This document shows positions 7,391 through 23,564 of a DNA stretch of 64,000 bases, in pieces. The stretch covers positions 62,001 through 126,000 of the forward strand of contig NZ_PGUW01000002.1 in the NCBI RefSeq assembly GCF_002863565.1, read 5' to 3'. Origin of the DNA: Bacillus sp. V5-8f. Its GTDB lineage: Bacteria; Bacillota; Bacilli; Bacillales; DSM-1321. The notes below the pieces were generated by a model that saw only the letters and a program-made list of their open reading frames with translations, was not told where the DNA came from and searched no databases. The translations under genes were made by a program, and so were the position numbers. Each line of letters starts with the position of its first letter. The first letter of the stretch is position 1.

Positions 7391-7428
7391 ACAAAAGACA
7401 AAACATCTAAAAAACAATAGTAAGAATG

Positions 7429-7470
7429 TTACATTTTGTTCAATGTGCGAATTCTCAAATTATATATAAT
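7429..7470 (+). promoter_or_regulatory. Permease promoter with shared pyrimidine-cluster motif
   Basis: TTACATTTTGTTCA at 7429-7442 fits TTACA-N3-TGT-N2-A. A TATAAT -10 box lies at 7465-7470, 36 bases further on. The same arrangement recurs before 10603, 12131 and 19419. It probably binds a regulator just upstream of a poor -35. Confidence 0.5.
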
Positions 7471-7555
7471 TAAATTAGCTGTTAAGTATCATTGACATAA
7501 TAGTTGATTTCCTTTTTGGTGTTTCCTAACGCTGTCGCATCGATTTTTGGTCCGG

Positions 7556-7586
7556 CCTCTCGGAAAAAGGGGTTTTTCTTGAGAGG
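7556..7586 (+). promoter_or_regulatory. Leader hairpin before the NCS1 permease
   Basis: CCTCTC (7556-7561) pairs with GAGAGG (7581-7586), and the loop holds a second pairing A5/T5. No T tract follows, so it is not a normal terminator. The 5' leader is about 145 nt long. A role in RNA stability or control is possible but unproven. Confidence 0.4.
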
Positions 7587-7622
7587 ATTGGGAAATCTCA
7601 GCATTAAAAAAGGAGGGGTTTA

Positions 7623-9149
7623 ATGAAAACGCAAATTCAACAAAATGGAATTGTTACCTTGACAGACACTGCAACAGAAAAATTGAAGCACAGCGATTTA
7701 TGGAATGATGATTTGCGGCCGACAACTTTGAAGGAACATTCATGGAGCGGCATGAACTTTGCTACTTTGTGGATTGGGATGTGTTTATGTATCCCTGCCT
7801 ACACTATGGCAAGCGGGCTGATAACATTAGGAATGAGTTGGTGGCAGGCTGTCTTAACGATTTTCCTGGGAAACGTCATTGTTCTTATCCCTATTCTTTT
7901 AAATTCGCATGCAGGGACAAAGTTTGGCATTCCATATCCAGTTTTTGCCCGCCTTTGGTTTGGGGATAAAGGTGCACACATTCCAGCGTTAGCACGAGCG
8001 CTTGTCGCAGCAGGATGGTTTGGTATTAATACGTGGATTGGAACAGGTGCAATCGATACATTGCTTTCAGCCTCATTTTCCACTTGGGCGAACTTACCAG
8101 GACATACGGCAATTGTTTTTGCTTTTTTCTGGGCACTGAATGTAGGCGTGGCTTACAAAGGCCCACAAGCTATGAAGGTTCTAGGTGCAATTGCAGCACC
8201 GGTAGTCGGTATTTCAGCAATCATTCTCCTTATTTGGGCTTTCACCCAATCAGGCGGCTGGGGGCCTATTCTAGAGCAGCCTTCCAAATTCAATTCCACG
8301 GGCGAATTTTTCAAAGTATTTTTTCCAGCCCTTACTGGGGTTATTGCGTTTTGGGCAACCTTAGCTTTAAATATTCCTGATTTTTGCCGGTACGCAAAGA
8401 ACCAGAAATCACAAATGGTTGCCCAAAGCATTTCTCTTCCGCTGACAATGAGTATTTTTGCTTTTATTGGCATAGCAGTAACGTCCGCAACAATTGTTAT
8501 ATTTGGGCAGGCTATTTGGGATCCAGTACAGCTGATAGCGAACTTCCCGCCATTTGTTATCTTCTTAGGCACTATTGTCATTGTGCTTTCTTCCTTGACG
8601 ATTAATGTTGGAGCAAACATTGTAGCGCCTGCCCGTGCAGTAGAAAACTTAAACCCGAAACGTATCACTTTTGCAATGGGTGCCCTGATTACCGGAATTG
8701 TGACCATCTTAATGCAGCCTTGGTATATCATGTCTAACTTTGGCAACTATATTTTTGGCTGGCTTGGTGCTTATGCGGCATTGTTAGGCCCGATTGACGG
8801 CATTGCCATTGCAGACTACTGGTTGGTTCGCAAAAGGCAGTTGGCACTCAGTGAATTATATGAACCAGGCGGAAGGTACAACTATAGCAGCGGGTATAAT
8901 AAAAATGGGATTTATGCACTTATTATCGGAGTAGTTATTCCCGTTCTTGGATTGATTATTCCAAGTCTTAGATTTCTCTGGGATAACGCCTGGACAGCCG
9001 GATTAATCATTTCAATTGCTGCATATGTCTACTTAATGAGAAGCGATAAAAGTGTTTTGAAAACTGGGGAATATGAAAAAATTACAATCAAGGAAAATTT
9101 AGCACAAACGCCTGGCAGTAATCCTATCGATTCAGTTGTAACAAAATAA
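7623..9149 (+). CDS. NCS1-family permease (uracil/hydantoin/allantoin type)
   Basis: A 508-residue nucleobase:cation symporter-1 protein with about twelve membrane helices. The N-terminal cytoplasmic part (NDDLRPTTLKEHSWSGMNF) and the first helix (LWIGMCLCIPAYTMASGL) are typical of Mhp1/PucI-like transporters, and GWFGINTWIG in helix 3 carries the aromatic substrate-site region. AGGAGGGG precedes ATG 7623. It lies at the head of the pyrimidine catabolic cluster and shares its promoter motif, so uracil, thymine or the dihydro/hydantoin forms are the most likely cargo. The exact cargo is inferred from position, not from residues. Confidence 0.87.
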   Translation: MKTQIQQNGIVTLTDTATEKLKHSDLWNDDLRPTTLKEHSWSGMNFATLWIGMCLCIPAYTMASGLITLGMSWWQAVLTIFLGNVIVLIPILLNSHAGTKFGIPYPVFARLWFGDKGAHIPALARALVAAGWFGINTWIGTGAIDTLLSASFSTWANLPGHTAIVFAFFWALNVGVAYKGPQAMKVLGAIAAPVVGISAIILLIWAFTQSGGWGPILEQPSKFNSTGEFFKVFFPALTGVIAFWATLALNIPDFCRYAKNQKSQMVAQSISLPLTMSIFAFIGIAVTSATIVIFGQAIWDPVQLIANFPPFVIFLGTIVIVLSSLTINVGANIVAPARAVENLNPKRITFAMGALITGIVTILMQPWYIMSNFGNYIFGWLGAYAALLGPIDGIAIADYWLVRKRQLALSELYEPGGRYNYSSGYNKNGIYALIIGVVIPVLGLIIPSLRFLWDNAWTAGLIISIAAYVYLMRSDKSVLKTGEYEKITIKENLAQTPGSNPIDSVVTK

Positions 9150-9169
9150 GTATAAATTCAAGTAAAGGG

Positions 9170-9195
9170 CCTGAGATCAAATTCTCAGGTTTTTT
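9170..9195 (+). terminator. Terminator of the permease gene
   Basis: CCTGAGA (9170-9176), six-base loop, TCTCAGG (9183-9189), then six Ts. Confidence 0.85.
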
Positions 9196-9344
9196 ACGTA
9201 TACATGAGAGCCAATAAATTCAAAAGGAAAAAAGCGTTGAATGTAGAAAAAACAATATAGGGGAACACGATAACAGAATTATAAGCTTTATCTTGTCACC
9301 TAATAAAATTGAATAAACGAATCATTTAACTAGGGGGAATAATT

Positions 9345-10424
9345 ATGAAGTCATTTCCATTTATTGCAGTAAGCGGATCTGCAATTGAACGAGGGAGACA
9401 AATAGGAAGTAGAGCTAAAGAGCAAATCCTTCACAATATTAACACCTATAAAAGGATTTTTAAGGATATGGCTGGTGTAGACTGGGAAACCGCGACGAAA
9501 CGGGCGGCAGAATATATACCTTGGATTGAAAAATATGACCAAGAAATTATGAATGAAATCATTGGGATTAGCGAGGGCTCGAATCAGCCGCTATTGGATA
9601 TTGTTGCGTTAAATGCTAGAAGTGAAATTATAATAAACACCGACGGGTGCACAAGTTTAGCTGCCTTGCCCATAGCGACAAAACACCAGCATACGCTGCT
9701 TGGACAAAATTGGGACTGGATTGATGATATTAAGCCAGGTGTCATTATCCTTGAAATAGATCAGGACCCACGCCCGACGATATTAATGGCTACAGAAGCA
9801 GGCATTGTAGGGAAAATAGGGATGAACAGTAAAGGTGTTGGCGTTTGTTTAAATTTACTTGGAACAGCAAACAACAAAATGGGGGTGCCTATCCATATCA
9901 TACTCCGTGGCATTTTAAACAGTCATTCATTATCTCAGGCAGTCGGCCAGGTAGGAAGGCTGCAACGTGGTACAGCTGCTAATTTTCTTGTTGCTCACGG
10001 GGAAGGAGTTGCTTTCGATATTGAGGCAACTTCTACTGATTTTGATGTTTTGTATCCTTCCGATGGGACCATCAACCATACAAATCATTTTTTAAGTACC
10101 CGGATGGACATATTAGATACTGCCAGGCTGAAATTCCCCGATACCTATGTAAGATACTGGCGCTCCCATAATTTAGTTTCCGCAGCTAACATCGATGCAC
10201 AGACTCTTAAAACTATCTTTTCCGATCACTTCGGCCATCCTGATTCAATTTGCCGCCATGGCGAATCATATCCTGTTGATTTAGGAAGGAGTACAGCCTG
10301 CGGTACTGTATTTTCCATCATAATGAATTTATCAACAAAGACACTGGAGATTTCAAATGGTCAGCCTTGCACTAATGCCTATCACACTTATCAACTTTCC
10401 AAATTACAACTGAAAGAATCATAA
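9345..10424 (+). CDS. C45-family acyltransferase/amidohydrolase (penicillin acyltransferase-like)
   Basis: A 359-residue Ntn-hydrolase of the C45 type (acyl-CoA:6-aminopenicillanate acyltransferase family). Visible features are G.AIERGRQIGSRAKEQI near the N-terminus, a NARSEI segment, and DGCTSLA, where the Gly-Cys bond would be cut autocatalytically so that Cys becomes the N-terminal nucleophile. LLGQNWDWIDD, the Asn/Asp-rich partner motif, comes next. Proteins of this family outside fungi hydrolyse or transfer amides of unknown structure. RBS GGGGGAA lies before ATG 9345. It is monocistronic between the permease and the M20 hydrolase, inside a pyrimidine amide pathway. A role on an N-acyl or carbamoyl intermediate is a guess. 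Confidence 0.8.
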   Translation: MKSFPFIAVSGSAIERGRQIGSRAKEQILHNINTYKRIFKDMAGVDWETATKRAAEYIPWIEKYDQEIMNEIIGISEGSNQPLLDIVALNARSEIIINTDGCTSLAALPIATKHQHTLLGQNWDWIDDIKPGVIILEIDQDPRPTILMATEAGIVGKIGMNSKGVGVCLNLLGTANNKMGVPIHIILRGILNSHSLSQAVGQVGRLQRGTAANFLVAHGEGVAFDIEATSTDFDVLYPSDGTINHTNHFLSTRMDILDTARLKFPDTYVRYWRSHNLVSAANIDAQTLKTIFSDHFGHPDSICRHGESYPVDLGRSTACGTVFSIIMNLSTKTLEISNGQPCTNAYHTYQLSKLQLKES

Positions 10425-10505
10425 AATGTTCGTATCTATTAAATAGAGTGCAAACATTTAAAACTGTAGTTCGGACGATTTGTTAAAACTTGTTTGTCTA
10501 TTACT

Positions 10506-10548
10506 TTACAAAATGTCTATCCAATTAAAATTTTATGATAACTATAAT
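10506..10548 (+). promoter_or_regulatory. Promoter of the M20 hydrolase with shared motif
   Basis: TTACAAAATGTCTA at 10506-10519, then TATAAT at 10543-10548 (37 bases from motif start). Thirteen bases (10507-10519) are identical to 19326-19338, before the semialdehyde dehydrogenase gene. Confidence 0.55.
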
Positions 10549-10602
10549 AATAGAGAGGTTTCATAAACGAGAAATAAACTTTATTGTGGAAGCGGTGAAA
10601 TT

Positions 10603-11853
10603 ATGATCAAAACACATGCTATCAATACTTCAAGACTGCAGGACAGAATTGAGAAGCTAGCTCAAATTGGAAAAATCGGTGACACCGGGGTCTGCCGCTT
10701 AGCTTTGTCAAAGGAAGATCGTAAGGCAGTCGATGTTGTAAAGGGTTGGATGGAAGAAGCGGGAATGGAAACAAGGATTGACCATTTCGGTAACTTAATA
10801 GGAAGAATGGAAGGGAAAAATCCCGATAAACCAATAATAATGTTGGGTTCGCATATTGATTCACAGCCTTACGGGGGACGCTTTGATGGTGCAATTGGGG
10901 TTTTGGGCGCCATTGAAGCAGTGCAAGCCATGGCAGAAAAGAAAATTGTCCCCGAAGCACCTATTGAGGTTGTGGCTTTTTGTGATGAAGAAGGCTGTAG
11001 GTTCAATAAGGGGATTTTTGGGGTCCGGGGCATTTGGGGAGCATTGGAACCGGGCGAATTGGATAGAAAGGACAAAGACGGGATTACAAGAAGGCAAGCA
11101 CTTATTGATTTTGGTTGTGATCCCGAAAAATTTAGCGAATCGGAATACAAACCAGGCAGTGTTGCAGCATTTCTGGAATTGCATATTGAGCAAGGTCCAG
11201 TGCTTGATAGGCTACAGGAACCAATTGGAATTGTAACGGGAATTTCAGGCCCCCTATGGCTGACCGTTGAGATGACAGGTTTTGCCGGACACGCCGGAAG
11301 TGTGCCGATGCCAATGCGCCAGGATGCCTTATTAGGTTCTGCCAAAGTGATTGTCGCCCTAAATGAAATCGCAACGCAAGAACAAGGAAGTCCAACTGTC
11401 GCCACGGTGGGAAATATTGAGGTATTCCCAAATTCCAGAAACATCATTCCTGAAAAGGTTACTTTCACAGTGGATTTAAGGGATATCGAATTGGAGCGAA
11501 GAGACCGGTATGAAAAACAACTCCACCGTGCCATTCAGAGGATAGCTGAGGAACACAAGCTAACAGTTTCGATTTCAGAGGATACGAATACAGAACCACG
11601 TTATTGCGCGGACTGGATTAAGGATATGATTCGTGATGCAGCCGGCAAAATGGGCTATAAGCCAACTGAATTAATGAGCGGCCCCTTTCATGATTCGCTA
11701 GTAATGTCTAATCACTGTGATTATGGAATGATTTTCGTCCGCTGCAAGGACGGCATCAGCCATAATCCGCTTGAGTCTTCCACCCATGAAGACATCGCAA
11801 TCGGAACAGAGCTGTTATACCAAACAGTGCTGGGCATTATCCAACGGAAGTAA
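10603..11853 (+). CDS. M20-family N-carbamoyl-amino-acid hydrolase / beta-ureidopropionase-like
   Basis: A 416-residue binuclear zinc amidohydrolase. Metal and catalytic motifs are visible: GSHIDSQPYGGRFDGAIGV (His and bridging Asp), CDEEGCRFNKGIFG (Glu base and Glu ligand), LELHIEQGPVL (His ligand) and a dimerisation segment with GFAGHAGSVPMPMRQD. The family splits N-carbamoyl-beta-alanine, N-carbamoyl-L-amino acids or allantoate. In this cluster, where dihydropyrimidinase makes N-carbamoyl-beta-alanine, it is probably a beta-ureidopropionase or a hydantoin-linked carbamoylase. A nitrilase-type ureidopropionase follows, so two unrelated enzymes could do the same step. It has its own promoter and terminator. 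Confidence 0.87.
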   Translation: MIKTHAINTSRLQDRIEKLAQIGKIGDTGVCRLALSKEDRKAVDVVKGWMEEAGMETRIDHFGNLIGRMEGKNPDKPIIMLGSHIDSQPYGGRFDGAIGVLGAIEAVQAMAEKKIVPEAPIEVVAFCDEEGCRFNKGIFGVRGIWGALEPGELDRKDKDGITRRQALIDFGCDPEKFSESEYKPGSVAAFLELHIEQGPVLDRLQEPIGIVTGISGPLWLTVEMTGFAGHAGSVPMPMRQDALLGSAKVIVALNEIATQEQGSPTVATVGNIEVFPNSRNIIPEKVTFTVDLRDIELERRDRYEKQLHRAIQRIAEEHKLTVSISEDTNTEPRYCADWIKDMIRDAAGKMGYKPTELMSGPFHDSLVMSNHCDYGMIFVRCKDGISHNPLESSTHEDIAIGTELLYQTVLGIIQRK

Positions 11854-11870
11854 TCGCATATCCAATAATA

Positions 11871-11907
11871 GCGGGCTCATCCTTAATGTGGCCCGCTTAT
11901 TTTTTTG
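11871..11907 (+). terminator. Terminator of the M20 hydrolase gene
   Basis: GCGGGC (11871-11876), 14-base loop, GCCCGC (11891-11896), then TTATTTTTTT. Confidence 0.85.
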
Positions 11908-11996
11908 AAAGAACGTGGACTTGGCCGGCGTTCGGAAAACTGTTTTTTGACAAAGTGTTATATGAAGACTCAAAGTCAAGCCCAAACGTAATAAGT

Positions 11997-12071
11997 TTAC
12001 ATTGTGTATGAAACGCATCGTCCATTCCTTACAGATTGTGTAATGAAATGACCAGGTCTTAATAATAAAAT
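11997..12071 (+). promoter_or_regulatory. Promoter of the pyrimidine-degradation operon with two motif copies
   Basis: TTACAGATTGTGTA at 12029-12042 is a full match to TTACA-N3-TGT-N2-A. A second copy, TTACATTGTGTATG, lies 32 bases upstream at 11997-12010 with one mismatch. The -10 candidate TAAAAT is at 12066-12071, 37 bases after the proximal motif start. The 32-base spacing puts both sites on the same DNA face. Confidence 0.5.
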
Positions 12072-12130
12072 TAATCCAACGTTACATAGAGTTTTTATTA
12101 TAAAGCACGGTGAAGGAGGAGGGTTTCAGA

Positions 12131-13021
12131 ATGTCGGACAAAGTGATGATTGGTCTGATTCAAGCATCCAATGACATCCATGGGAATGAATCGGTAGAGG
12201 TGCACAAACAAAAAGCGATTGAAAAGCACATTAAGCTAATCAGAGAAGCAAAAGCAAAAAAAGCTCAAATCATTTGCCTACAGGAAATTTTTTATGGCCC
12301 ATATTTCTGTGCTGAACAAACCCCGAAATGGTATGAGGCTGCAGAAGAAGTGCCAAATGGGCCTACAGTTAAGCTTTTTCAGGAGCTGGCAAAAGAATTG
12401 GAAGTCGTGATCATTTTGCCTATTTACGAACGGGAGGGTATTGCAACATATTACAATACGGCCGCTGTTATTGATGCAGATGGATCATATTTAGGTAAAT
12501 ACCGGAAAAATCATATTCCTCACGTACAGGCTGGTGAGGAGGGATACGGTTTCTGGGAAAAGTACTATTTTAAACCAGGTAATCTGGGATATCCTGTTTT
12601 CGATACGGCTTATGCAAAAGTAGGCGTGTATATATGTTATGACCGCCATTTTCCAGAGGGTGCCCGCTTGTTAGGACTAAAGGGAGCTGAAATCGTATTT
12701 AATCCCTCAGCGACAGTAGCTGGGACTTCGGAATATTTATGGAAGCTTGAACAACCGGCCCATGCCGTTGCCAATGGGTATTATATTGCTGCGATAAACC
12801 GTGTAGGCTTCGAAGCTCCATGGAACATGGGTGAGTTTTATGGTCAATCTTATCTCGCCGATCCGCGAGGTAACTTTGTGGCAGAGGCAAGCCGCGATCG
12901 TGATGAAGTGGTAATTGGTGAAATGGATAAAAAGTTGATTCGAGAAGTAAGGGATGTTTGGCAATTTTATCGTGACCGTCGCCCGGAAACTTATCAAGAC
13001 ATGACTGCACTACTTCCGTGA
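12131..13021 (+). CDS. Nitrilase-superfamily beta-ureidopropionase
   Basis: A 296-residue carbon-nitrogen hydrolase. The Glu-Lys-Cys triad is visible in CLQEIFYGPYF, KYRKNHIPH and YICYDRHFPEG. The last, with its RHFPEGAR context, is typical of beta-ureidopropionase/N-carbamoylputrescine amidase-like enzymes. The expected reaction is N-carbamoyl-beta-alanine (or the beta-aminoisobutyrate form) to the beta-amino acid, CO2 and ammonia. I start at ATG 12131, seven bases after GGAGGAGGG; the longer frame opens at GTG 12110 with no site. It is the first gene of the operon with preT, preA and hydA, which fixes its pathway role well. Confidence 0.88.
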   Translation: MSDKVMIGLIQASNDIHGNESVEVHKQKAIEKHIKLIREAKAKKAQIICLQEIFYGPYFCAEQTPKWYEAAEEVPNGPTVKLFQELAKELEVVIILPIYEREGIATYYNTAAVIDADGSYLGKYRKNHIPHVQAGEEGYGFWEKYYFKPGNLGYPVFDTAYAKVGVYICYDRHFPEGARLLGLKGAEIVFNPSATVAGTSEYLWKLEQPAHAVANGYYIAAINRVGFEAPWNMGEFYGQSYLADPRGNFVAEASRDRDEVVIGEMDKKLIREVRDVWQFYRDRRPETYQDMTALLP

Positions 13022-13069
13022 CCTGAGTGCTTGAATCATCAAACCAATGAATGCAAAGGGGTGGATTGA

Positions 13070-14437
13070 TTGAGTAATGTAGCGAGAATTTCCTTGCATC
13101 AGTTAGAAAAGAACTTTGACGAAATAGAGCTTGGTTTAACAAATCGCCAGGCAATAGAAGAAGCGAACCGATGTTTATACTGTTACGATGCTCCTTGCAT
13201 TAAAGCATGCCCTACAGGAATTGATATTCCAACCTTTATAAAAAAAATCGCTACGGGAAATCTCAAAGGGTCTGCCACAACCATCATGACAGCCAACCCT
13301 ATCGGTGCCAGTTGTGCTAGGGTTTGCCCGACGGAGGAGCTATGTGAGGGTGCTTGTGTACTAAATCATTCTACAGCGCCGATTATGATTGGGAATCTGC
13401 AGCGGTATGCCACAGACTGGGCGATTAAAAACGAACAGGTACTTTTTAAAGCCGGAACGAGGAACGGAAAATCAGTGGCAGTTGTAGGAAGTGGTCCCGC
13501 CGGTCTGTCTGCCGCCCGTGAATTGGCGATCCTCGGATATAAGGTTACTATTTTTGAAGCCGAAGAAAAAGCAGGAGGGTTAAATACGTATGGCATTGTT
13601 TCTTTCCGGCTGCCGCAAGCAATTTCTTTCTGGGAAGTGGAACAGGTAAAAAGCCTGGATGTTGAGATACGCACAAATACAAGAGTAGGAAAAGATATTT
13701 CGGCGAAAGAACTGCTTGAAAGTTACGATGCCGTAGTAATGGCTATAGGCATGTCCGAAGTTCCTAAAGTGGGTATTGAAGGGGAAGACCTCCCGGAGGT
13801 CTACGATGCGATCCAGTTTGTTAAAGAAACAAAAACCGGTGAACTTACAAGGGAATTCATCGGAAAGCGGGTAGCCGTGATCGGAGCAGGCAATACCGCG
13901 ATTGACGCTGCAACCTGTTCGGTACGCCTCGGTGCGGAAAATGTGAAAATCCTATACCGCAGAACGTTTGAAGAAATGACCGCCTATGAATTTGAATACG
14001 AGTTTGCTAAACAGGATGGTGTTGAATTTCACTGGTTAACCGCGCCTAACAGGATCCTTGCCGATGAAACCGGAAAGGTGGCCGGAATCGAATGCATAAA
14101 AATGGCATTAAGTGATCCAGGTGAAGACGGCCGGCGCCGACCGCTCAAAGTGGAGGGGTCAGAATTCGTAATACCCGTCGATGCAGTCATTCGCGCAATT
14201 GGACAATCCAGGCGTGTACAGTTGATTGAGGAGTTTGGACTTGACCATAACGATGGAGTAGTTAAGCTATCACATGACTCATTCAAAACCTCCAATGATC
14301 AAGTATATGCATGCGGAGATGTTGTATTTGGAAAAGGCCAGGGGGAAGCCATGGTCGTGTCAGCCGCACAGCAAGGAAAGAAGCTAGCATATGAAATTCA
14401 TAAGAAGCTATTTAACCAGAGAATAGAAACCGCATGA
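13070..14437 (+). CDS. preT: Dihydropyrimidine dehydrogenase, PreT-type NAD/FAD subunit
   Basis: A 455-residue protein resembling the small subunit of glutamate synthase. The N-terminal domain has two cysteine clusters for 4Fe-4S centres (CLYCYDAPCIKACP and CARVCPTEELCEGAC). An FAD-binding VVGSGPAGLSAA (near residue 140) and a second NAD(P)H dinucleotide fold with VIGAGNTAIDAA follow. It passes electrons from NADH to the pyrimidine-reducing PreA subunit, converting uracil/thymine to the 5,6-dihydro forms. It starts at TTG 13070 after GGGGTGG. preA starts 24 bases downstream. The match to PreT of the PreTA complex is clear by motif order and partner. Confidence 0.9.
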   Translation: MSNVARISLHQLEKNFDEIELGLTNRQAIEEANRCLYCYDAPCIKACPTGIDIPTFIKKIATGNLKGSATTIMTANPIGASCARVCPTEELCEGACVLNHSTAPIMIGNLQRYATDWAIKNEQVLFKAGTRNGKSVAVVGSGPAGLSAARELAILGYKVTIFEAEEKAGGLNTYGIVSFRLPQAISFWEVEQVKSLDVEIRTNTRVGKDISAKELLESYDAVVMAIGMSEVPKVGIEGEDLPEVYDAIQFVKETKTGELTREFIGKRVAVIGAGNTAIDAATCSVRLGAENVKILYRRTFEEMTAYEFEYEFAKQDGVEFHWLTAPNRILADETGKVAGIECIKMALSDPGEDGRRRPLKVEGSEFVIPVDAVIRAIGQSRRVQLIEEFGLDHNDGVVKLSHDSFKTSNDQVYACGDVVFGKGQGEAMVVSAAQQGKKLAYEIHKKLFNQRIETA

Positions 14438-14461
14438 AAATACAGATAAAGGAGGTATAAT

Positions 14462-15742
14462 ATGGCAGATCTAAGCATTAACCTTGCTGGAATAAAATCC
14501 CCGAACCCTTTTTGGCTAGCCTCTGCACCCCCCACGAATTCGGGATACCAAGTACAACGGGCATTTGAAGCCGGCTGGGGAGGAGCAGTTTGGAAGACAT
14601 TGGGAGATCCGATCTTAAATGTTTCTTCCCGTTTCGCTGCTGTCAGCTTTAATGGACAAAGGGTTGCAGGCTTTAACAATATCGAATTGATTACCGACCG
14701 ACCCCTTGAGGTAAATTTGAAGGAAATAGAGGAGACCAAGAAGAAATTTCCCAATCACGCTATCATCGCTTCTTTAATGGTAGAGCCAAAGCAAGAGAAA
14801 TGGCATGAAATCGTAAAGCGCGTGGAGGCTGTCGGGGTGGATGGTTTAGAACTAAATTTCGGGTGCCCTCACGGTATGGCTGAAAGGGGAATGGGTTCAG
14901 CTTCTGGTCAGGTTCCAGAATTAGTGGAAAAACAAACCTACTGGACTAAGGAGGCAGCCAATACGCCGGTTATAGTTAAATTAACGCCAAATATTACGGA
15001 CATTACCGTAACAGCGGAAGCGGCTGTAAGAGGCGGAGCGGATGCAGTGAGTATGATCAACACCATAAACAGCCTTGCTGGAGTTGATATTCATACATGG
15101 AACACGATACCGCATGTTGGCGGAAAAGGGGCACATGGTGGCTATTGCGGCCCGGCAGTAAAGCCAATTGCCTTAAATATGGTTGCCGAATGTGCAAGGA
15201 ACCCTTTGGTGAATGTTCCTATCTCCGGAATTGGCGGCATCTCCAATTGGCAGGATACTGTTGAATTTATATTGATGGGGGCAACAGGAGTTCAGGTTTG
15301 TACAGCAGCCATGCACCACGGGTTCCGCATTGTCGAGGATATGATAGAGGGGTTGTCCAATTATCTAGATGAAAAAGGGCTTGCTTCCATTAATGATTTG
15401 GTAGGAAAATCGGTGCCAAGATACTCCGATTGGGGGGACCTGGATTTAAACTACCAGATTGTTGCCAGGATCAATAAGGATGTTTGCATTAATTGCAACA
15501 AATGCCATATAGCCTGTGAGGATACTTCCCATCAATGCATTGATATGCTGAAAGACTCAAATGGAAATCCTTACTTAAGGGTTCGAGAGGATGATTGTGT
15601 AGGATGCAATCTTTGCTCCATTGTTTGCCCTGTAGACGGAGCCATTGATATGGTTGAATTGAAGACGAGTTTGCCGCCAATGACATGGAACGAGAGGCAA
15701 TCTGCTATTAGTTCGTTTAGCCGAAGAGATTTAGTTAAATAG
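14462..15742 (+). CDS. preA: Dihydropyrimidine dehydrogenase, PreA-type catalytic subunit
   Basis: A 426-residue protein. The FMN-binding dihydroorotate-dehydrogenase-like barrel begins LAGIKSPNPFWLASAPPT and carries the catalytic cysteine in FGCPHGMAERGMG, the pyrimidine-binding loop of dihydropyrimidine dehydrogenases. Two ferredoxin-type 4Fe-4S motifs close the protein (CINCNKCHIAC and CVGCNLCSIVCP). This is the uracil/thymine-reducing subunit paired with PreT. AAAGGAGG lies before ATG 14462. The dihydropyrimidinase gene begins 10 bases after its stop. Confidence 0.92.
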   Translation: MADLSINLAGIKSPNPFWLASAPPTNSGYQVQRAFEAGWGGAVWKTLGDPILNVSSRFAAVSFNGQRVAGFNNIELITDRPLEVNLKEIEETKKKFPNHAIIASLMVEPKQEKWHEIVKRVEAVGVDGLELNFGCPHGMAERGMGSASGQVPELVEKQTYWTKEAANTPVIVKLTPNITDITVTAEAAVRGGADAVSMINTINSLAGVDIHTWNTIPHVGGKGAHGGYCGPAVKPIALNMVAECARNPLVNVPISGIGGISNWQDTVEFILMGATGVQVCTAAMHHGFRIVEDMIEGLSNYLDEKGLASINDLVGKSVPRYSDWGDLDLNYQIVARINKDVCINCNKCHIACEDTSHQCIDMLKDSNGNPYLRVREDDCVGCNLCSIVCPVDGAIDMVELKTSLPPMTWNERQSAISSFSRRDLVK

Positions 15743-15751
15743 GGAGGCATA

Positions 15752-17173
15752 ATGATGAGGAAATTAATTAAAAACGGCACAATCGTGACCGCTGCTGATA
15801 CCTATTCAGCAGATATATTAATTGAAAATGAAAAGATTACGGCAATAGGAGCCAACCTGAACTTTGAAGGCGCTGAGGTTATCGATGCTTCCGGTTTTTA
15901 TGTTTTCCCGGGTGGAATTGATCCACACACACATCTGGAGATGCCATTCGGAGGCACTGTAACAAAAGACGACTTTGAAACGGGTACAATAGCAGCTGCT
16001 TTTGGCGGAACAACTACTGTGATAGATTTCTGTTTGACCGAAAAAGGAAAACCCTTAAAAAGCGCAATCGAAACCTGGCATAATAAATCAAGAAATAAAG
16101 CGGTCATTGACTACGGCTTTCACCTAATGATTTCAGAGATAAATGACGATGTTTTACAAGAGATACCAAGTGTAATAGATGAGGAAGGGATCACCTCATT
16201 TAAAGTGTTCATGGCTTATAAAAACGTGTTCCAGGCTGATGACGAAACCCTATTTCGAACCTTGGTCACTGCCCGGGAACATGGAGCGCTTGTCATGGTT
16301 CATGCTGAGAATGGAGACGTAATAGACTACTTAACAAAAAAAGCTCTGGACGAAGGAAAGACGGAACCGATCTATCATGCGTTAACCAGGCCACCTGAAA
16401 TAGAAGGAGAAGCAACAGGTAGGGCGGCTCAGTTGGCCGGCCTCGCCAATTCTCAGCTATATGTAGTCCATGTTTCCTGCGAGGATGCGGTTGAAAGAAT
16501 TATAGAAGCCAGAAACAAGGGTTTTGATATTTGGGGGGAAACCTGTCCGCAGTATTTAGTTCTTGACCAATCCTACTTAGAGAAGCCAAATTTCGAAGGT
16601 GCCAAGTATGTTTGGTCCCCGCCGCTTCGGGAAAAACGGCATCAGAATGTCCTGTGGAACGCATTGAAAAACGGCCAGCTGCAGACAATCGGATCCGACC
16701 AATGTTCGTTTGATTTCAAAGGGCAAAAGGATCTTGGGAAAGATGATTTCACAAAAATCCCGAATGGTGGTCCCATGATCGAAGACCGCATGAGTATCTT
16801 GTTCTCGGAAGGGGTTACCAAAGGGAGAATCTCCTTAAATCAATTTGTAGAAATTACATCAACTAGAGCTGCCAAGTTATTTGGACTTTATCCGCAAAAA
16901 GGGACCATAACAGTTGGAGCTGATGCAGATATCATTATTTTTGATCCTGTTTCAGAAAGAACAATTTCAGCTAGTACACACCATATGGCCGTTGATTATA
17001 ATGCCTTTGAAGGGATGAAAGTAACTGGGGAGCCAGTCTCTGTATTATCAAGAGGACAATTTGTCATTCGGGACAAAAGTTTTGTAGGTACACCCGGGAA
17101 AGGGCTATATCTGAAAAGGGATAAATATGGAAGTGCTCAGTCGATAAATGAAAAAGAAGGTTTGTCCGTTTAA
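15752..17173 (+). CDS. hydA: Dihydropyrimidinase / D-hydantoinase
   Basis: A 473-residue cyclic amidohydrolase. Zinc ligands are all visible: His59 and His61 (DPHTHLE), carboxylated Lys151 (SFKVFMAYK), His184 (VHAENGD), His240 (VVHVSCE) and Asp316 (GSDQCSF). The enzyme opens the ring of dihydrouracil/dihydrothymine (and hydantoins) to give N-carbamoyl-beta-amino acids, the substrate of the ureidopropionase at the head of the operon. GGGAGG precedes two adjacent ATGs (15752 and 15755), and either could be used. Length and motif spacing are normal for the family. Confidence 0.93.
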   Translation: MMRKLIKNGTIVTAADTYSADILIENEKITAIGANLNFEGAEVIDASGFYVFPGGIDPHTHLEMPFGGTVTKDDFETGTIAAAFGGTTTVIDFCLTEKGKPLKSAIETWHNKSRNKAVIDYGFHLMISEINDDVLQEIPSVIDEEGITSFKVFMAYKNVFQADDETLFRTLVTAREHGALVMVHAENGDVIDYLTKKALDEGKTEPIYHALTRPPEIEGEATGRAAQLAGLANSQLYVVHVSCEDAVERIIEARNKGFDIWGETCPQYLVLDQSYLEKPNFEGAKYVWSPPLREKRHQNVLWNALKNGQLQTIGSDQCSFDFKGQKDLGKDDFTKIPNGGPMIEDRMSILFSEGVTKGRISLNQFVEITSTRAAKLFGLYPQKGTITVGADADIIIFDPVSERTISASTHHMAVDYNAFEGMKVTGEPVSVLSRGQFVIRDKSFVGTPGKGLYLKRDKYGSAQSINEKEGLSV

Positions 17174-17225
17174 TCTGTCAAAAAGCTAAAATCACTGATT
17201 ATCATAAGGTAAAGAGTTTCACGTG

Positions 17226-17243
17226 CCCCCCGATAAAGGGGGG
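17226..17243 (+). promoter_or_regulatory. GC-rich hairpin between hydA and the following small gene
   Basis: Six Cs (17226-17231), six-base loop, six Gs (17238-17243). No T tract follows. It may protect or cut the operon mRNA, or slow transcription before the small gene. Confidence 0.45.
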
Positions 17244-17267
17244 GATTTCATTAAAAGAGGGATGCAT

Positions 17268-17471
17268 ATGTCGGATTATCAGGAATTTCTGGCTGAAAGG
17301 GAACAAATGGATTTATTAATAGGCCAGGGATATCGTATAGTAAATGTAACAGAAAATCTTAGCGGAGCCTTTGTGGACTTTATATCGAAAAAAGATGGCG
17401 ACTTGAAGCAGCTCCACATCAAAACGGCGGATGGGAGAAAGTACTTTTCTATCATTCTCTTGAATAAGTAA
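17268..17471 (+). CDS. Hypothetical protein, 67 aa, last gene of the pyrimidine operon
   Basis: Starts at ATG 17268 with AGAGGG six bases before; a longer frame from 17223 crosses the GC hairpin and is unlikely. The 67-residue product is a soluble alpha/beta domain: an acidic helix (SDYQEFLAEREQMDLLIGQ), then strands YRIVNVTENLSGAFVDFI, KQLHIKTADGRKYFS. I do not recognise a family. It sits 94 bases after hydA and before a strong terminator, so it is co-transcribed. A small accessory or regulatory role in pyrimidine breakdown is possible but unproven. Confidence 0.7.
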   Translation: MSDYQEFLAEREQMDLLIGQGYRIVNVTENLSGAFVDFISKKDGDLKQLHIKTADGRKYFSIILLNK

Positions 17472-17493
17472 GGCATCCGATTGTAAAAGTGGG

Positions 17494-17519
17494 GACAAGG
17501 TAAAATCTTGTCTTTTTTT
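17494..17519 (+). terminator. Terminator of the pyrimidine-degradation operon
   Basis: GACAAG (17494-17499), seven-base loop, CTTGTC (17507-17512), then seven Ts. Confidence 0.87.
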
Positions 17520-17608
17520 GGTGTAAGAAAAACTAACAAAGAAGTAGAGCACCAACCAGTATTTCTTTATAATGGAATTAGTTAGTCTTAGGTAAAGGGG
17601 TTGGATGG

Positions 17609-19225
17609 ATGAAATCTTTTATGACCATTGAAGAAATCTTAAGACGAAAATATTTCGATAAAAGTGAAATGCTGGCAGGAAAAGAGGGAAAAAAAAGGTT
17701 GGTAAAATGGGTTCATGTAGTGGAATCAACCCAAATAACGCATTTGTTAAATGGAAATGAGCTGATCCTGACTACCGGATTAGGCTGGAAGGATGATGAA
17801 ACGCTTTTAATCCCCTTTATAAAGCAATTGATCAACACCCATGCTGCTGGCCTTTGCATTGAAATAGGAACCCATATTTCTAAGATACCTCAAGACGTAA
17901 TCATACTAGCAAACCATTACAACTTTCCAATCATACTTTTCCATCAGGAAGTACCCTTTGTTGAAATTACCCACGATTTGCATTCCGTCATAATAAACAA
18001 ACAATACCTACTTATCTCCAGCATAGAAAGCTATTCCCAGGAACTTAATAAGATGTTGCTTGAAGTCGATCATTACGACCAGATTTTGAAGTTTTTACAA
18101 AACTATTTAGAGGTACAGGTTTTGATTTTATTTAATAACCAAGAATTTAAAGCTTGTCCAAATATCCGAGGAGATGTGTTAAGGCAACTTATTGGAAAGA
18201 TACAAGAATCGGAGAACCTATCTGATCCTTGTGTTTCCAGGCAATCCATACAGATTCTTGGTGAAGCTTATGCGGAACTGGCCATCTTTTCAAAGCAGAG
18301 GGAATTGAATGAGTTTGATCTGATTATCCTAGATAGAACGGCCACTGCTCTTGCACAACATTTTTTGCGTGATTTATATGTGGAAGAGAAAAAAAATGTG
18401 GAAGAAGGTACATGGATTAGGAGCTGGCTAGACGGAGAGCATAGCGATGAGGCGATCCGAAACCAACTATCATTCAGTCATCCCCGAATAAAACTCCATG
18501 GGGCAGCCGTCTGCATTTGTAAACTTCCGCCTGCGACCAGAAACAATGCAGTAGTAGACCGTACGTATTTCAAATTATTGTTCAGAACAGTATTTGAACA
18601 AGCGGGCTTTTTGATATTTCCAACAGAAATGCAGCATCATCTGATTTTTATTATGGGTGATAAACGTTCCCCGGAAAACTGGAAAGACAGAATGGCCGAC
18701 GCCTTTGAACGCATTATTAATTCTGAGAGAATTAGTAGAAAGAGAAGCTCAGGTATAGCCTTTGGTGTGGGAAAATATGTGACTAATCTTGGAGACTTGT
18801 ATAAGAGCTATAAAACAGCAAAAGAGGCACTTGTTTTGCAGGATAAGTTAACCCAAGAAAATAAAAGTTATTTTTATCAGGACTTGCATATGTACCGGAT
18901 TCTGTCACTAATAAAAGAGCATAGTAATCTGGAGGAAACTGTGAAAGAATACCTTGAGCCTGTAATACTGTACGATAAACAATTTAACGGGGAATTGATG
19001 GTCACGTTAAAAACTTATTTAAGATGTAATGGTTCCAAACAAGAAACTTCAAGAAGGTTATTTATCGTTCGGCAGACTTTATATCATCGGCTGGAAAAGC
19101 TGGAAAAGCTCCTTGGAAAAGACTTTATGCAGTCGGAAAGGCGATTGGCTATTGAATTTATGGTATTGGCACATGATTATTTATTGAGCACTAAGAAAGA
19201 AGATTTGTTACGATATGAAATTTAG
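17609..19225 (+). CDS. PucR-family transcriptional regulator
   Basis: A 538-residue protein with the PucR layout. An N-terminal purine-catabolism-regulator-like domain comes first (EILRRKYFDKSEMLAG, VVESTQITHLLNGNELILTTG). A GGDEF-like central CdaR region follows (RISRKRSSGIAFGVGKYV, YKSYKTAKEALVL). A C-terminal helix-turn-helix closes it (LKTYLRCNGSKQETSRRL, RQTLYHRLEKLEKLLG). PucR proteins activate purine, allantoin and pyrimidine degradation genes. AAAGGGG precedes ATG 17609, and a TATAAT lies at 17568-17573. Its place between the degradation operon and the semialdehyde dehydrogenase operon makes it the best candidate for the factor binding TTACA-N3-TGT-N2-A. Confidence 0.88.
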   Translation: MKSFMTIEEILRRKYFDKSEMLAGKEGKKRLVKWVHVVESTQITHLLNGNELILTTGLGWKDDETLLIPFIKQLINTHAAGLCIEIGTHISKIPQDVIILANHYNFPIILFHQEVPFVEITHDLHSVIINKQYLLISSIESYSQELNKMLLEVDHYDQILKFLQNYLEVQVLILFNNQEFKACPNIRGDVLRQLIGKIQESENLSDPCVSRQSIQILGEAYAELAIFSKQRELNEFDLIILDRTATALAQHFLRDLYVEEKKNVEEGTWIRSWLDGEHSDEAIRNQLSFSHPRIKLHGAAVCICKLPPATRNNAVVDRTYFKLLFRTVFEQAGFLIFPTEMQHHLIFIMGDKRSPENWKDRMADAFERIINSERISRKRSSGIAFGVGKYVTNLGDLYKSYKTAKEALVLQDKLTQENKSYFYQDLHMYRILSLIKEHSNLEETVKEYLEPVILYDKQFNGELMVTLKTYLRCNGSKQETSRRLFIVRQTLYHRLEKLEKLLGKDFMQSERRLAIEFMVLAHDYLLSTKKEDLLRYEI

Positions 19226-19324
19226 CTGGAGCTCCGTTGGGGGCTTCTATTTCGTTATATAGAAGATGATACGCAGCCCTATCGAAATTTACTTACACTC
19301 TGTTACAAATATTCAATAATTTGT

Positions 19325-19368
19325 ATACAAAATGTCTAATGAACCGACCTTCCTTTCCCGTATATAAT
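19325..19368 (+). promoter_or_regulatory. Promoter of the semialdehyde-dehydrogenase operon with shared motif
   Basis: ATACAAAATGTCTA at 19325-19338 matches TTACA-N3-TGT-N2-A with one change and is followed by ATGA. TATAAT is at 19363-19368, 38 bases from the motif start. Confidence 0.55.
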
Positions 19369-19418
19369 GAGGACAATAAAAGTTATATATCTATGGAATG
19401 ATTATGGAGGTAAATGAT

Positions 19419-20879
19419 ATGGGTCTTACCAAACCGGCAGTAGATGTTCTAAAGAATTTTGTAGGCGGCGTCTGGGTCGAGTCTTCAAGTGAAAAGTTTG
19501 AAGATGTTCCTAACCCAGCAACAGGTGAATTACTAGCAAAAGTTCCGATTTCAACACGTGAAGATGTGAATCACGCAGTGGCTGTAGCGAAAGAAGCGTT
19601 TAAATACTGGAAAAATATAGCTGTTCCTCAAAGGGCACGAATTCTGTTCCGATACCATCAGCTCTTGACGGAAAACTGGGACGATCTAGCTACGCTGGTG
19701 ACCCAGGAAAATGGAAAAAGCTATGAAGAAGCTTACGGGGAAGTGTTACGCGGTATCGAGTGCGTGGAGTTTGCTTCAGGTGTTCCAACTCTCATGCAAG
19801 GATACCAGCTACCGGACATTGCAACAGGAATTGAATCAGGAATGTACCGTTATCCAATTGGGGTAATAGGGGGAATCACACCATTTAATTTCCCTATGAT
19901 GGTACCTTGCTGGATGTTCCCGCTCGCTATTGCCTGTGGAAATACGTTTATATTGAAGCCTTCAGAAAGGACACCGCTTTTAGCAAACCGATTGGCGGAA
20001 CTTATGAAAGAGGCCGGTTTGCCAGATGGGGTTCTAAATGTGGTTCATGGTGCACATGATGTAGTAAACGGATTGCTTGAACATGAAGATGTCAAGGCGA
20101 TATCTTTTGTGGGCTCACAACCAGTTGCAGAATATATTTATAAGACTGCGGCTGCAAATGGAAAGCGTGTTCAAGCACTTGCCGGGGCGAAAAACCATTC
20201 AATTGTTATGCCGGACGCGGATATGGAGAATGCGGTTAGAAATATTACGATGGCTGCCTTCGGTTCTGCCGGTGAACGTTGCATGGCTGCTTCCGTTGTT
20301 GTGGCGGTTGGAGATATTGCGGATGAACTTGTGAACAGGCTTAAAAAAGCCGCTGATGAAATTGTAATAGGCAATGGCCTTGACAAGGAGGTATTCCTGG
20401 GGCCTGTCATTCGGCAATCGCATAAGGAACGAACCCTGAAATATATCGAATCAGGAAAAGAACAGGGAGCCCAAATAATCAGGGATGGACGAAATGACGA
20501 AGTATCTGAGGAAGGATACTTTATTGGGCCTACCATATTTGACAGCGTAAAGACAAACATGAAAATTTGGAAAGATGAAATTTTTGCGCCTGTATTATCT
20601 GTTGTCCGGGTTGAAAGTCTTGATAAAGCCATTGAACTTGCTAATGAATCTGAATTTGCGAATGGTGCCTGCCTTTATACAGACAGTGCGAAAGCAATCC
20701 GCCAATTCCGGGATGACATGGATGCAGGCATGCTGGGTGTAAATCTGGGTGTACCTGCACCAATGGCATTTTTCCCATTCTCAGGTTATAAAAAGTCGTT
20801 TTACGGAGATCTTCATGCCAATGGCAAGGACGGAGTGGAGTTTTATACCCGTAAAAAAATGCTTACTGCCCGGTATTAA
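19419..20879 (+). CDS. mmsA: CoA-acylating (methyl)malonate-semialdehyde dehydrogenase
   Basis: A 486-residue aldehyde dehydrogenase. Family marks are FVGGVWVES near the N-terminus, the MMSDH-type [20 protein letters not shown], an Asn-rich Rossmann region and the catalytic Cys in [11 protein letters not shown] (the GERCM signature separates MMSDH/IolA types from ordinary aldehyde dehydrogenases). The product would be acetyl-CoA from malonate semialdehyde or propionyl-CoA from methylmalonate semialdehyde. ATG 19419 has GGAGGT seven bases upstream; earlier ATGs in frame lie within that site. It is co-transcribed with the aminotransferase 34 bases downstream, completing the route from beta-amino acids. 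Confidence 0.9.
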
Positions 20880-20913
20880 TGCGTTACAAATTCATTAATA
20901 TGGAGCTGGTGTG

Positions 20914-22254
20914 ATGAAAAATCTAGAAAAGACTCATACACTTCAAGAGGCGGATGAAAAGTTTCTATGGCATTCCATGAAAGGTTCAGCCCCTGGGCAG
21001 GCAAATACAGTATTTACCAAGGGAAGCGGTGCATGGATCACTGATACCGAGGGCAATAGATACCTTGATGGAATGTCAGGCTTATGGTGCGTAAACGTTG
21101 GTTATGGAAGACAGGAGCTTGCGGAAGCAGCATTTAAACAATTGCAGGAATTAGCATATGTTCCCTTAACTCAAAGCCACATCCCGGCCATAAAACTAGC
21201 GGAAAAATTAAATGAGTGGCTCGGTGACGAGTATGTCATTTTCTTTTCAAACAGCGGATCAGAAGCAAATGAAGCTGCATTTAAAATTGCACGCCAATAC
21301 CATCAACAAACGGGAGGGCACAACCGTTATAAATTCATCTCAAGATATCGAGCTTATCATGGGAATACAATGGGGGCGTTAGCGGCAACAGGGCAGGCGG
21401 AAAGAAAATATAAATATGAACCTCTTGGGCAAGGTTTCCTACATGTAGCCCCTCCTGATACTTACCGGAATCCGGAAGATTCGACTACTTTGGCTTCTGC
21501 TGAAGAAATTGACCGGGTGATGACATGGGAAATTAGTGAAACCATTGCAGGTGTGATCATGGAGCCTATTATTACCGGTGGAGGAATCATTATGCCGCCA
21601 CAAGGATATATGGCCAGGGTGAAGGAAATCTGTGAGAGCCATGGAGCCCTGCTGATTTGCGATGAAGTTATCTGCGGTTTTGGAAGAACCGGTAAACCAT
21701 TCGGGTTTATGAATTACGGAGTGAAGCCGGATATTATCACAATGGCAAAAGGAATAACAAGTGCGTATTTACCGTTATCGGCGACCGCGGTAAAACGGGA
21801 TATTTACGAGGCTTACGCTGGGGCAGACACGTATGACCGTTTCCGCCATGTGAATACCTTTGGTGGAAATCCGGCTGCATGTGCGCTCGCTTTAAAAAAT
21901 TTAGAAATATACGAAAATGAAAACCTCATTGAAAGATCCAGAATATTGGGAGAAAAGCTTTTGGCTGACTTACAAGAATTAAAGAATCATCCATTGGTCG
22001 GGGATGTACGCGGAAAAGGGCTCCTTGTCGGCATAGAATTAGTAAAAGATAAAGAAACAAAGGCCCCTCTGGAAATCGAAAAGGTAAACAAGGTAATTGG
22101 GTTGTGCAAAGAAAAGGGACTTATTATTGGGAAGAACGGAGACACAGTCGCAGGATTCAATAACGTAATAGCGCTGGCACCGCCGCTAAGTATAACCGAT
22201 GATGACTATGCCTTCATTGTGCGTACGTTAAAGCAAAGTTTTTTGGAGTTGTAG
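20914..22254 (+). CDS. Class III omega-aminotransferase, probably beta-alanine/beta-aminoisobutyrate:pyruvate
   Basis: A 446-residue PLP enzyme of fold type I. Visible features are FWHSMKGSAPG-type substrate region, GLWCVNVGYGRQEL, the SGSEANEAAFKIARQYH phosphate-binding helix, the ICDEVICGFGRTGKPFG Asp, and the Schiff-base Lys in TMAKGITSAYLP. Beta-alanine:pyruvate aminotransferases share this layout. Its product in this setting would be malonate semialdehyde or methylmalonate semialdehyde, the substrate of the dehydrogenase just upstream. ATG 20914 has GGAG eight bases before it. Amine or taurine substrates cannot be excluded from residues alone. Confidence 0.87.
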   Translation: MKNLEKTHTLQEADEKFLWHSMKGSAPGQANTVFTKGSGAWITDTEGNRYLDGMSGLWCVNVGYGRQELAEAAFKQLQELAYVPLTQSHIPAIKLAEKLNEWLGDEYVIFFSNSGSEANEAAFKIARQYHQQTGGHNRYKFISRYRAYHGNTMGALAATGQAERKYKYEPLGQGFLHVAPPDTYRNPEDSTTLASAEEIDRVMTWEISETIAGVIMEPIITGGGIIMPPQGYMARVKEICESHGALLICDEVICGFGRTGKPFGFMNYGVKPDIITMAKGITSAYLPLSATAVKRDIYEAYAGADTYDRFRHVNTFGGNPAACALALKNLEIYENENLIERSRILGEKLLADLQELKNHPLVGDVRGKGLLVGIELVKDKETKAPLEIEKVNKVIGLCKEKGLIIGKNGDTVAGFNNVIALAPPLSITDDDYAFIVRTLKQSFLEL

Positions 22255-23543: not shown

Positions 23544-23564
23544 TTTCAATCCTCTCCCTTTTTG

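Follow-up and report, generated by a model that had tools for sequence, protein, structure and literature searches.

Which protein acts on a short motif that recurs at the promoters of a pyrimidine-degradation cluster is the question raised by a 64,000-nucleotide stretch of DNA from Bacillus sp. V5-8f (contig NZ_PGUW01000002.1, positions 62,001 to 126,000), which is referred to here as the window, its genus being called Peribacillus throughout. The cluster contains genes for a permease and a carbamoylase, an operon that starts with nit (operon 1), a second operon composed of mmsdh and ata (operon 2), and, between the two operons, pucR, the gene of a PucR-family regulator (Table 1). The motif, TTACA-N3-TGT-N2-A, is in all likelihood the operator of this PucR-type activator, judging from sequence comparison, and it is organized in pairs of boxes which very probably represent the landing sites from which the neighbouring regulator would switch the pathway on.

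The paired box at four promoters

The initial annotation listed five copies of the motif, and all of their coordinates and sequences are right, those starting at 7429, 10506 and 12029 being exact and those at 11997 and 19325 carrying one mismatch each. The same is true of the 13 identical bases shared by 10507 and 19326 (TACAAAATGTCTA), and of the distances of 36, 37, 37 and 38 bases between the start of the proximal box and the -10 box at the permease, carbamoylase, nit and mmsdh promoters, respectively. As an anatomy of the promoters, the list was incomplete, given that an upstream partner box is found 32-33 bp away at all four, two of these partners (permease and carbamoylase) being imperfect. 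The copy at 11997 is itself the upstream partner at nit, and the partners at 19293, 10473 and 7396 had gone unlisted. In related loci, the position of the permease distal box reads AGACAAAACATCCA in L062, where the permease proximal box is conserved too, a tandem pair also stands before the permease orthologue in L216 and L217, and the position of the carbamoylase distal box reads AGACATTTTGTTAA in L080 and TAACAACCTGTCCA in L081.

The -35 hexamers, read with a 17-bp spacer, are poor, having 0, 2, 4 and 3 of the 6 TTGACA bases at the four promoters. Each promoter presents two inverted-repeat sites just upstream of the predicted -35, with the proximal box abutting the -35 position, in an arrangement like that of the GabR system discussed below. 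The earlier proposal of an activator site just upstream of -35 is supported by this geometry, which is conserved, and by the poor -35 hexamers, with both the -35 and the -10 being predicted.

Bare counts of the motif are another matter. The window contains 3 exact matches, with 0.65 expected (at least 3 in 3 of 100 shuffles), and 29 matches with at most one mismatch, with 20.9 expected (at least 29 in 6 of 100 shuffles), and the 4,433,545-base genome that holds the window has 69 matches to the bare motif and 56 to the reversed pattern. Bare-motif counting, being near the reversed-pattern control, was dropped as evidence. The 14-mer alone is common genome-wide, and falls by itself under the objection that the initial annotation had raised against its own proposal, namely that the motif might be frequent in unrelated intergenic regions.

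The specific unit is the tandem pair plus the -10 box. The pattern TACA-N3-TGT-N23..27-TATAAT has only 3 matches in the whole genome (control, 1), which are the permease, carbamoylase and mmsdh promoters of the cluster, and TACA-N3-TGT-N21..25-TACA-N3-TGT, in which the boxes lie 31-35 bp apart, has 2 (control, 0), one before nit and one before mmsdh, so that the rarity of the composite is far beyond chance.

Conservation in Peribacillus and across the order

The signature was composed of the two boxes and TATAAT, and was scored as the number of mismatches over 24 positions, allowing box distances of 31-34 and -10 offsets of 35-38 within the 500 bases upstream of a gene, with dinucleotide shuffles as the control. 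In the window, the regions before the AAT gene, preT and pucR scored 8, 8 and 9, which is the chance level.

A PucR match at E<=1e-40 is present in 29 of the 36 genomes of the genus, the window's own included, and the 16-20 kb around the best match were taken from the 28 others. All 28 loci have the signature at operon 1 (before nit or preT) with at most 4 mismatches (shuffled, 1/140), and the signature also stands at operon 2, with at most 3 mismatches, in each of the 6 stretches in which mmsdh is included (shuffled, 0/30 below 8). When ties are broken towards 37, the operon-1 offset of the -10 box is 37 in 27 and 38 in 2 of the 29 loci, the window included; another tie-breaking, on TATAAAAT, tallies it as 35 in 23/28.

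In the order, PucR orthologues (E<=1e-140) were found in 107 of 397 genomes and in 32 of 135 genera, and the loci of 60 of the 97 orthologue-bearing genomes outside the genus, from 31 genera, were sampled. The initial annotation had called for a search at the same spacing upstream of orthologous genes, and a conserved signature is found there: operon 1 has at most 5 mismatches in 52 of 54 loci (shuffled, 0/270) and operon 2, before mmsdh, in 47 of 55 (shuffled, 2/275), which corresponds to 27/28 and 25/30 genera, respectively. Among these matches, the box distance is 33 in 51/52 cases at operon 1 and 39/47 at operon 2, and the offset is 37 in 47/52 and 47/47.

A dyad search that made no use of the motif ranked ACA-N3-TGT first at operon 1 (25/28 genera, 4.2 expected) and the overlapping ACA-N4-GTC first at operon 2 (29/30 genera, 1.9 expected), where ACA-N3-TGT was the ninth-ranked dyad (25/30 genera, 3.1 expected). 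The box-to-box distance of 33 was recovered in 50/54 operon-1 and 22/55 operon-2 loci, with no more than 3 for any distance in the shuffles, and the proximal consensus is approximately TTTWACA-N3-TGTMTAATGAA. Outside the scored sets, the cluster is also found on a 690-kb plasmid of Cytobacillus spongiae, where the regulator is annotated as PucR (43.7% identity); at both the nit and the mmsdh promoter of this plasmid, the two boxes are 33 bp apart and the -10 offset is 37, with 3 mismatches each.

The exact tandem pattern was rejected as a means of counting, given that its 65 positives among the 397 genomes include G339 and G414, which have no pucR match, and that it misses TGC and TAACA variants. 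A search at the level of the class was positive in 15 of 348 genomes, counted as genomes and not as loci.

Co-occurrence with the regulator gene

The link between the boxes and the regulator was examined in a held-out set of 30 preA loci which had not been used in defining the signature, 20 of them being part of the preA-bearing genomes without a PucR match at 1e-140; all 30 had been inspected before the scored test, ten of them earlier. A cluster pucR, defined by at least 38% identity, is present in 11 of the 30 loci (that of L256 lying just past the end of the stretch), and L263 (33%) and L120 (26-30%) were counted among the 19 loci without it. At operon 1, the signature with at most 5 mismatches occurs in 8/11 loci with pucR and 1/19 without it (Fisher, 2e-4), and with at most 6 in 11/11 and 4/19 (5e-5); at operon 2, at most 5 mismatches occur in 7/9 and 0/9 (0.002). 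The shuffles gave 0/150 at <=5 and 3/150 at <=6 for operon 1, and 0/90 at <=5 for operon 2. The PucR-family gene inside the cluster had been named at the outset as the natural candidate, and the co-occurrence at the two operons argues for this choice.

A number of observations weigh against this assignment, and concern the boxes, the comparisons and the regulator gene itself. In the window, two of the upstream boxes, those of the permease and the carbamoylase, are weak. The sequences compared share ancestry, many of the Peribacillus loci being close relatives, and the counts are not independent. Of the 60 loci of the order, L213 and L214 lack the signature at operon 1 (in L213, a pair lies further upstream of preT, reaching past the 500 bases scored), and L190, L201, L224, L231, L232, L238, L243 and L244 lack it at mmsdh.

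In the held-out set, the 38% line was drawn after the loci had been seen. Locus L261 reaches 5 although it has no cluster pucR; its stretch is truncated by the end of the contig, and the only PucR match at E<=1e-30 in its genome is 32% identical and has an internal stop; L257, L123 and L125 reach 6 without pucR, a score that 3/150 shuffles also reach. Conversely, L254, L255 and L258 have pucR and reach only 6 at operon 1, L247 and L248 have it and score 9, the chance level, at mmsdh, and the genomes G037 and G038 have a PucR of 39% identity elsewhere and no signature at their clusters. Finally, pucR itself has no box: its autoregulation through the box was considered and rejected, as the best upstream scores in 30 stretches, a set that counts one genome twice (L061, L080), are 6-10, the chance level.

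Nitrogen and carbon regulators often control pathways of this kind, and the boxes might belong to a global regulator, such as TnrA/GlnR, CodY or CcpA, or else to some other protein of nitrogen control, with pucR as a bystander, as the score of L261 in the absence of a detectable cluster pucR would allow. This is very unlikely, however, given that the exact composites are confined to the cluster in this genome and that preA clusters without pucR mostly lack the signature at both operons. A TnrA/GlnR box, with TGT and ACA at an 11-base interval, is not what is seen at these promoters, the box being ACA-N3-TGT by inspection, which is unlike the GlnR consensus TGTNAN7TNACA (PMC9894248); no search aimed at CodY or CcpA sites was made.

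A second regulator was also considered. A LysR-type gene (22650-23549, minus strand) adjoins the cluster and is the only other regulator gene to do so in the window; it was rejected as a conserved second regulator, being found in 0/28 Peribacillus and 2/60 order loci, which had been chosen for pucR. As a separate observation, the Peribacillus cluster without pucR in L123 (genome G023) has a decayed-looking pair before nit, TTACATAATGAATG and TAACAAAATGCATA, 33 bp apart and with a poor -10, which is perhaps a relic of the loss of the regulator.

Sites at mmsdh genes away from pucR

The reading of the boxes as PucR sites was followed beyond the cluster by searching a fixed pattern, composed of an extended box plus the -10, in the 36 genomes of the genus, in 20 of which mmsdh was located. 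A site precedes mmsdh in 19 of the 20 (22 sites, three genomes having two), where the alignment with the gene starts 47-62 bp downstream of the pattern's -10 end, and the exception, G030, has only an mmsdh homologue of 59% identity. Matches to the pattern with 2 mismatches are partly noise, as the reversed control gave 0-3 per strand and genome; only the sites adjoining mmsdh were counted, one of which (G032) has 2 mismatches.

Of these 19 genomes, G032 alone has mmsdh within the pucR cluster, the gene being outside the pucR stretch in the other 18 genomes, and in the ten that have both genes on one contig the distance between them is 2.3-3.0 Mb. One such promoter, read in L274, has ATACAAAACGTCTA and, 32 bp further upstream, an ACA-N3-TGT box, and the gene that follows translates as MMSDH. 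The composite sequence, its rarity and conservation, its co-occurrence with pucR and these unlinked mmsdh sites are established by computation.

A PucR paralogue of 41% identity is encoded within a few kb of the second sites, those of G021, G024 and G029, and these may be its targets. In G017, a TGTCTAATG box plus TATAAT stands before an amidohydrolase-like gene (L275:105-250), and a clear upstream partner is missing there; about 15 of the 36 genomes of the genus have this 15-mer together with a -10-like end. A similar TGTCTAATG box is found in divergent orientation beside a PucR paralogue of 34% identity in eight of these genomes (e.g., G016:C1:3980409-3980449), a hint that part of the box is common to the family.

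The regulator and its possible mode of action

The protein encoded by pucR has the N-terminal PucR domain (residues 9-128; PF07905, 122.6 bits, cutoff 33.5) and the C-terminal HTH_30 domain (463-520; PF13556, 60.6 bits, cutoff 27) that mark the PucR-type regulators, both above their Pfam cutoffs, and a GGDEF_2 domain between them (321-408; PF17853, 24.8 bits, cutoff 24.5). It is not the AdeR equivalog, scoring 49.5 bits against the NF058503 cutoff of 700, and no solved relative was found by sequence at E<=0.01. The window protein is 85% identical to one from Peribacillus glennii, the sole named relative from the PucR contig search. An alignment of 96 orthologues has 69 columns with 97% conservation or more, many of them in the helix-turn-helix (HTH), including R488, Q489, T490, Y492 and R494; this agrees with the persistence of the site in some 30 genera and is not evidence of binding.

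From the promoters and the protein taken together, we infer the binding of PucR to the boxes, the activation, the oligomer, the effector and the transcription starts, in the following manner. Each target promoter would offer two short inverted-repeat boxes, a proximal one of the form TWACA-N3-TGTMTA and a looser upstream partner, and, as 32-33 bp is about three turns, the two would be presented on one side of the helix. The first of them would reach up to the poor -35, the good -10 following 36-38 bp after the first base of this proximal box, and the boxes would be centred near -42 and -75, if the -10 box begins at -12. In the presence of a pathway metabolite, dimers of the regulator would occupy both boxes, probably joined in a larger oligomer, and contact RNA polymerase, so that uptake, the conversion of uracil to beta-alanine and the breakdown of beta-alanine may be switched on together. 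The regulator would act in trans, given that the same site precedes mmsdh genes 2.3-3.0 Mb from pucR in ten genomes.

It might also be that the boxes are PucR sites from which the protein exerts mainly repression or a dual control, in the manner of the B. subtilis PucR, which is both an activator and a repressor (PMC7652997). This is highly improbable: the location of both boxes upstream of the -35 position and the poor -35 hexamers amount to the geometry of an activator, and the other PucR-type regulators listed in that source are activators. The last alternative, that of a chance or ancestral resemblance kept by descent without function, could draw on the near-control counts of the bare motif and the close relatedness of many Peribacillus loci, but is scarcely credible in view of similar boxes before four different genes in one genome, a spacing near 33/37 in 27/28 genera at operon 1, and the site at mmsdh genes far from pucR.

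As to the signal of the proposed activator, a PreA match is absent from 7 of the 107 genomes with PucR (G050, G054, G095, G282, G362, G381 and G395), and in all four of the preA-less loci examined (L202, L222, L241 and L242) pucR stands beside mmsdh and/or ata, genes that are preceded by boxes of the form TTACG-, TTACA- or CTACT-N3-TGTCTA; L202 was scored (5), L241 and L242 come from the scan, and L222 was read by eye. The regulator and the box are thus kept at the beta-alanine genes in the absence of preA, which makes beta-alanine catabolism the common denominator. Given this, and given that the studied PucR-type relatives answer to amino acids, namely gamma-aminobutyrate (GABA), proline and alanine (PMC7652997, PMC9894248), beta-alanine is a fair candidate for the effector. 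Against it stands the fact that most of the Peribacillus examined keep the regulator gene with the uracil genes and have mmsdh elsewhere. A uracil-pathway ligand, of the kind named in the initial annotation, is no more than possible.

A broader scenario may be tentatively outlined, to which somewhat less than an even chance is given. The regulator would be a beta-alanine-sensing activator with mmsdh-ata as its ancestral regulon, to which uracil breakdown, the permease and the carbamoylase were added, acting through tandem boxes of nearly fixed 33/37 spacing in some 30 genera, at unlinked genes too.

Relation to known systems

The PucR of B. subtilis belongs to the same domain family and serves the catabolism of ring nitrogen (purines), through a box of the TTGG type. 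Its site is non-palindromic (PMC7652997), unlike the present box. The closest resemblance in layout is offered by GabR of C. glutamicum, a PucR-type regulator of gabTDP that behaves as an octamer and occupies a pair of inverted repeats within the -87 to -23 region, adjoining the -35 on its upstream side; strong binding depends on the two sites together (PMC7652997). As in the cluster, two inverted-repeat sites lie directly upstream of the (here predicted) -35, and GabR activates a catabolic operon for an omega-amino acid. On the other hand, a GGDEF-like domain is absent from GabR, which binds 21-bp repeats and whose gene is divergent from the single operon under its control (PMC7652997), whereas the GGDEF_2-containing protein of the window appears to serve several promoters.

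The B. subtilis PutR/PrcR and AdeR are also PucR-type activators, of proline and alanine catabolism, with inverted repeats of 17 and 24 bp (PMC7652997, PMC13198045, PMC9894248); their targets differ from those of this cluster, and they are likened to it by description and not by site sequence. In the same pathway, PydR of Pseudomonas putida controls the gene of the dihydropyrimidine dehydrogenase, and its description in a title as a RutR-like repressor indicates another protein family and the opposite mode (PMC7332683).

Few PucR-type members have been studied so far (PMC7652997), and the open-licence papers searched yielded no description, for Bacilli, of an operator or a PucR-type regulator that serves this pathway; in the accessible parts of PMC4016543, PMC4617892, PMC12507026 and PMC545597, PucR occurs only in reference lists or in a B. 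licheniformis gene table. A PucR-type activator with inverted-repeat sites is of a known kind, and it is this regulon and the tandem operator that look new. The result is a sharply defined operator with a single candidate regulator and a predicted uracil/beta-alanine regulon in many genera of the order. The narrow geometry and the conserved HTH provide a clean system for the study of DNA binding and activation by PucR-type proteins, and a promoter responsive to beta-alanine or pyrimidines would be usable as a sensor.

Gene content of the cluster and minor observations

The gene set of reductive pyrimidine catabolism (Pyd) is complete, including preT/preA, a TIGR02033 dihydropyrimidinase, a CN_hydrolase, a class-III aminotransferase and MMSDH, all assigned by profile matches, with predicted activities. 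From the gene context, the nit product is probably a beta-ureidopropionase and the ata product probably a beta-alanine aminotransferase.

Table 1. Boxes, predicted -10 elements and genes of the pyrimidine cluster, in coordinates of the window.
Feature	Position	Strand	Remarks
Distal box, permease promoter	7396..7409	+	AGACAAAACATCTA; 4 mismatches, weak; box distance 33
Proximal box, permease promoter	7429..7442	+	TTACATTTTGTTCA
Predicted -10 TATAAT, permease promoter	7465..7470	+	Offset 36
NCS1-type permease (PF02133)	7623..9149	+	Pfam match
C45-family acyltransferase-like gene	9345-10424		Between permease and carbamoylase
Distal box, carbamoylase promoter	10473..10486	+	GGACGATTTGTTAA; 3 mismatches; box distance 33
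Proximal box, carbamoylase promoter	10506..10519	+	TTACAAAATGTCTA
Predicted -10 TATAAT, carbamoylase promoter	10543..10548	+	Offset 37
Hydantoinase/carbamoylase-family amidase (M20)	10603..11853	+	TIGR01879
Distal box, nit operon promoter	11997..12010	+	TTACATTGTGTATG; box distance 32
Proximal box, nit operon promoter	12029..12042	+	TTACAGATTGTGTA
Predicted -10 TAAAAT, nit operon promoter	12066..12071	+	Offset 37
nit, nitrilase-superfamily amidase, first gene of operon 1	12110..13021	+	Longest open reading frame, GTG start
PreT-like subunit, dihydropyrimidine dehydrogenase	13070..14437	+	Profile match
PreA, dihydropyrimidine dehydrogenase subunit	14462..15742	+	NF006183, 687.7 bits, cutoff 335
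Dihydropyrimidinase	15752..17173	+	TIGR02033, 676 bits, cutoff 393.25
PucR-family regulator, proposed activator	17609..19225	+	PucR domain, GGDEF_2, HTH_30
Distal box, mmsdh promoter	19293..19306	+	TTACACTCTGTTAC; box distance 32
Proximal box, mmsdh promoter	19325..19338	+	ATACAAAATGTCTA
Predicted -10 TATAAT, mmsdh promoter	19363..19368	+	Offset 38
mmsdh, coenzyme A (CoA)-acylating (methyl)malonate-semialdehyde dehydrogenase, operon 2	19398..20879	+	TIGR01722
ata, class-III aminotransferase, operon 2	20911..22254	+	Profile match

The C45-family gene has no match in the 28 Peribacillus and 60 other-genus loci (tblastn, E<=1e-20) and is perhaps a recent insertion; the scoring of its upstream region gave no box. 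In another genome of the set, G008 (87% complete), the pucR of locus L079 is split into two matches and preA has an internal TGA, possibly through assembly errors or decay. Upstream of pucR, the window has an open reading frame of 67 codons (17268-17471) with no Pfam family above cutoff, and small hypothetical genes occupy the same place on the Cytobacillus spongiae plasmid (L273:10522-10920).

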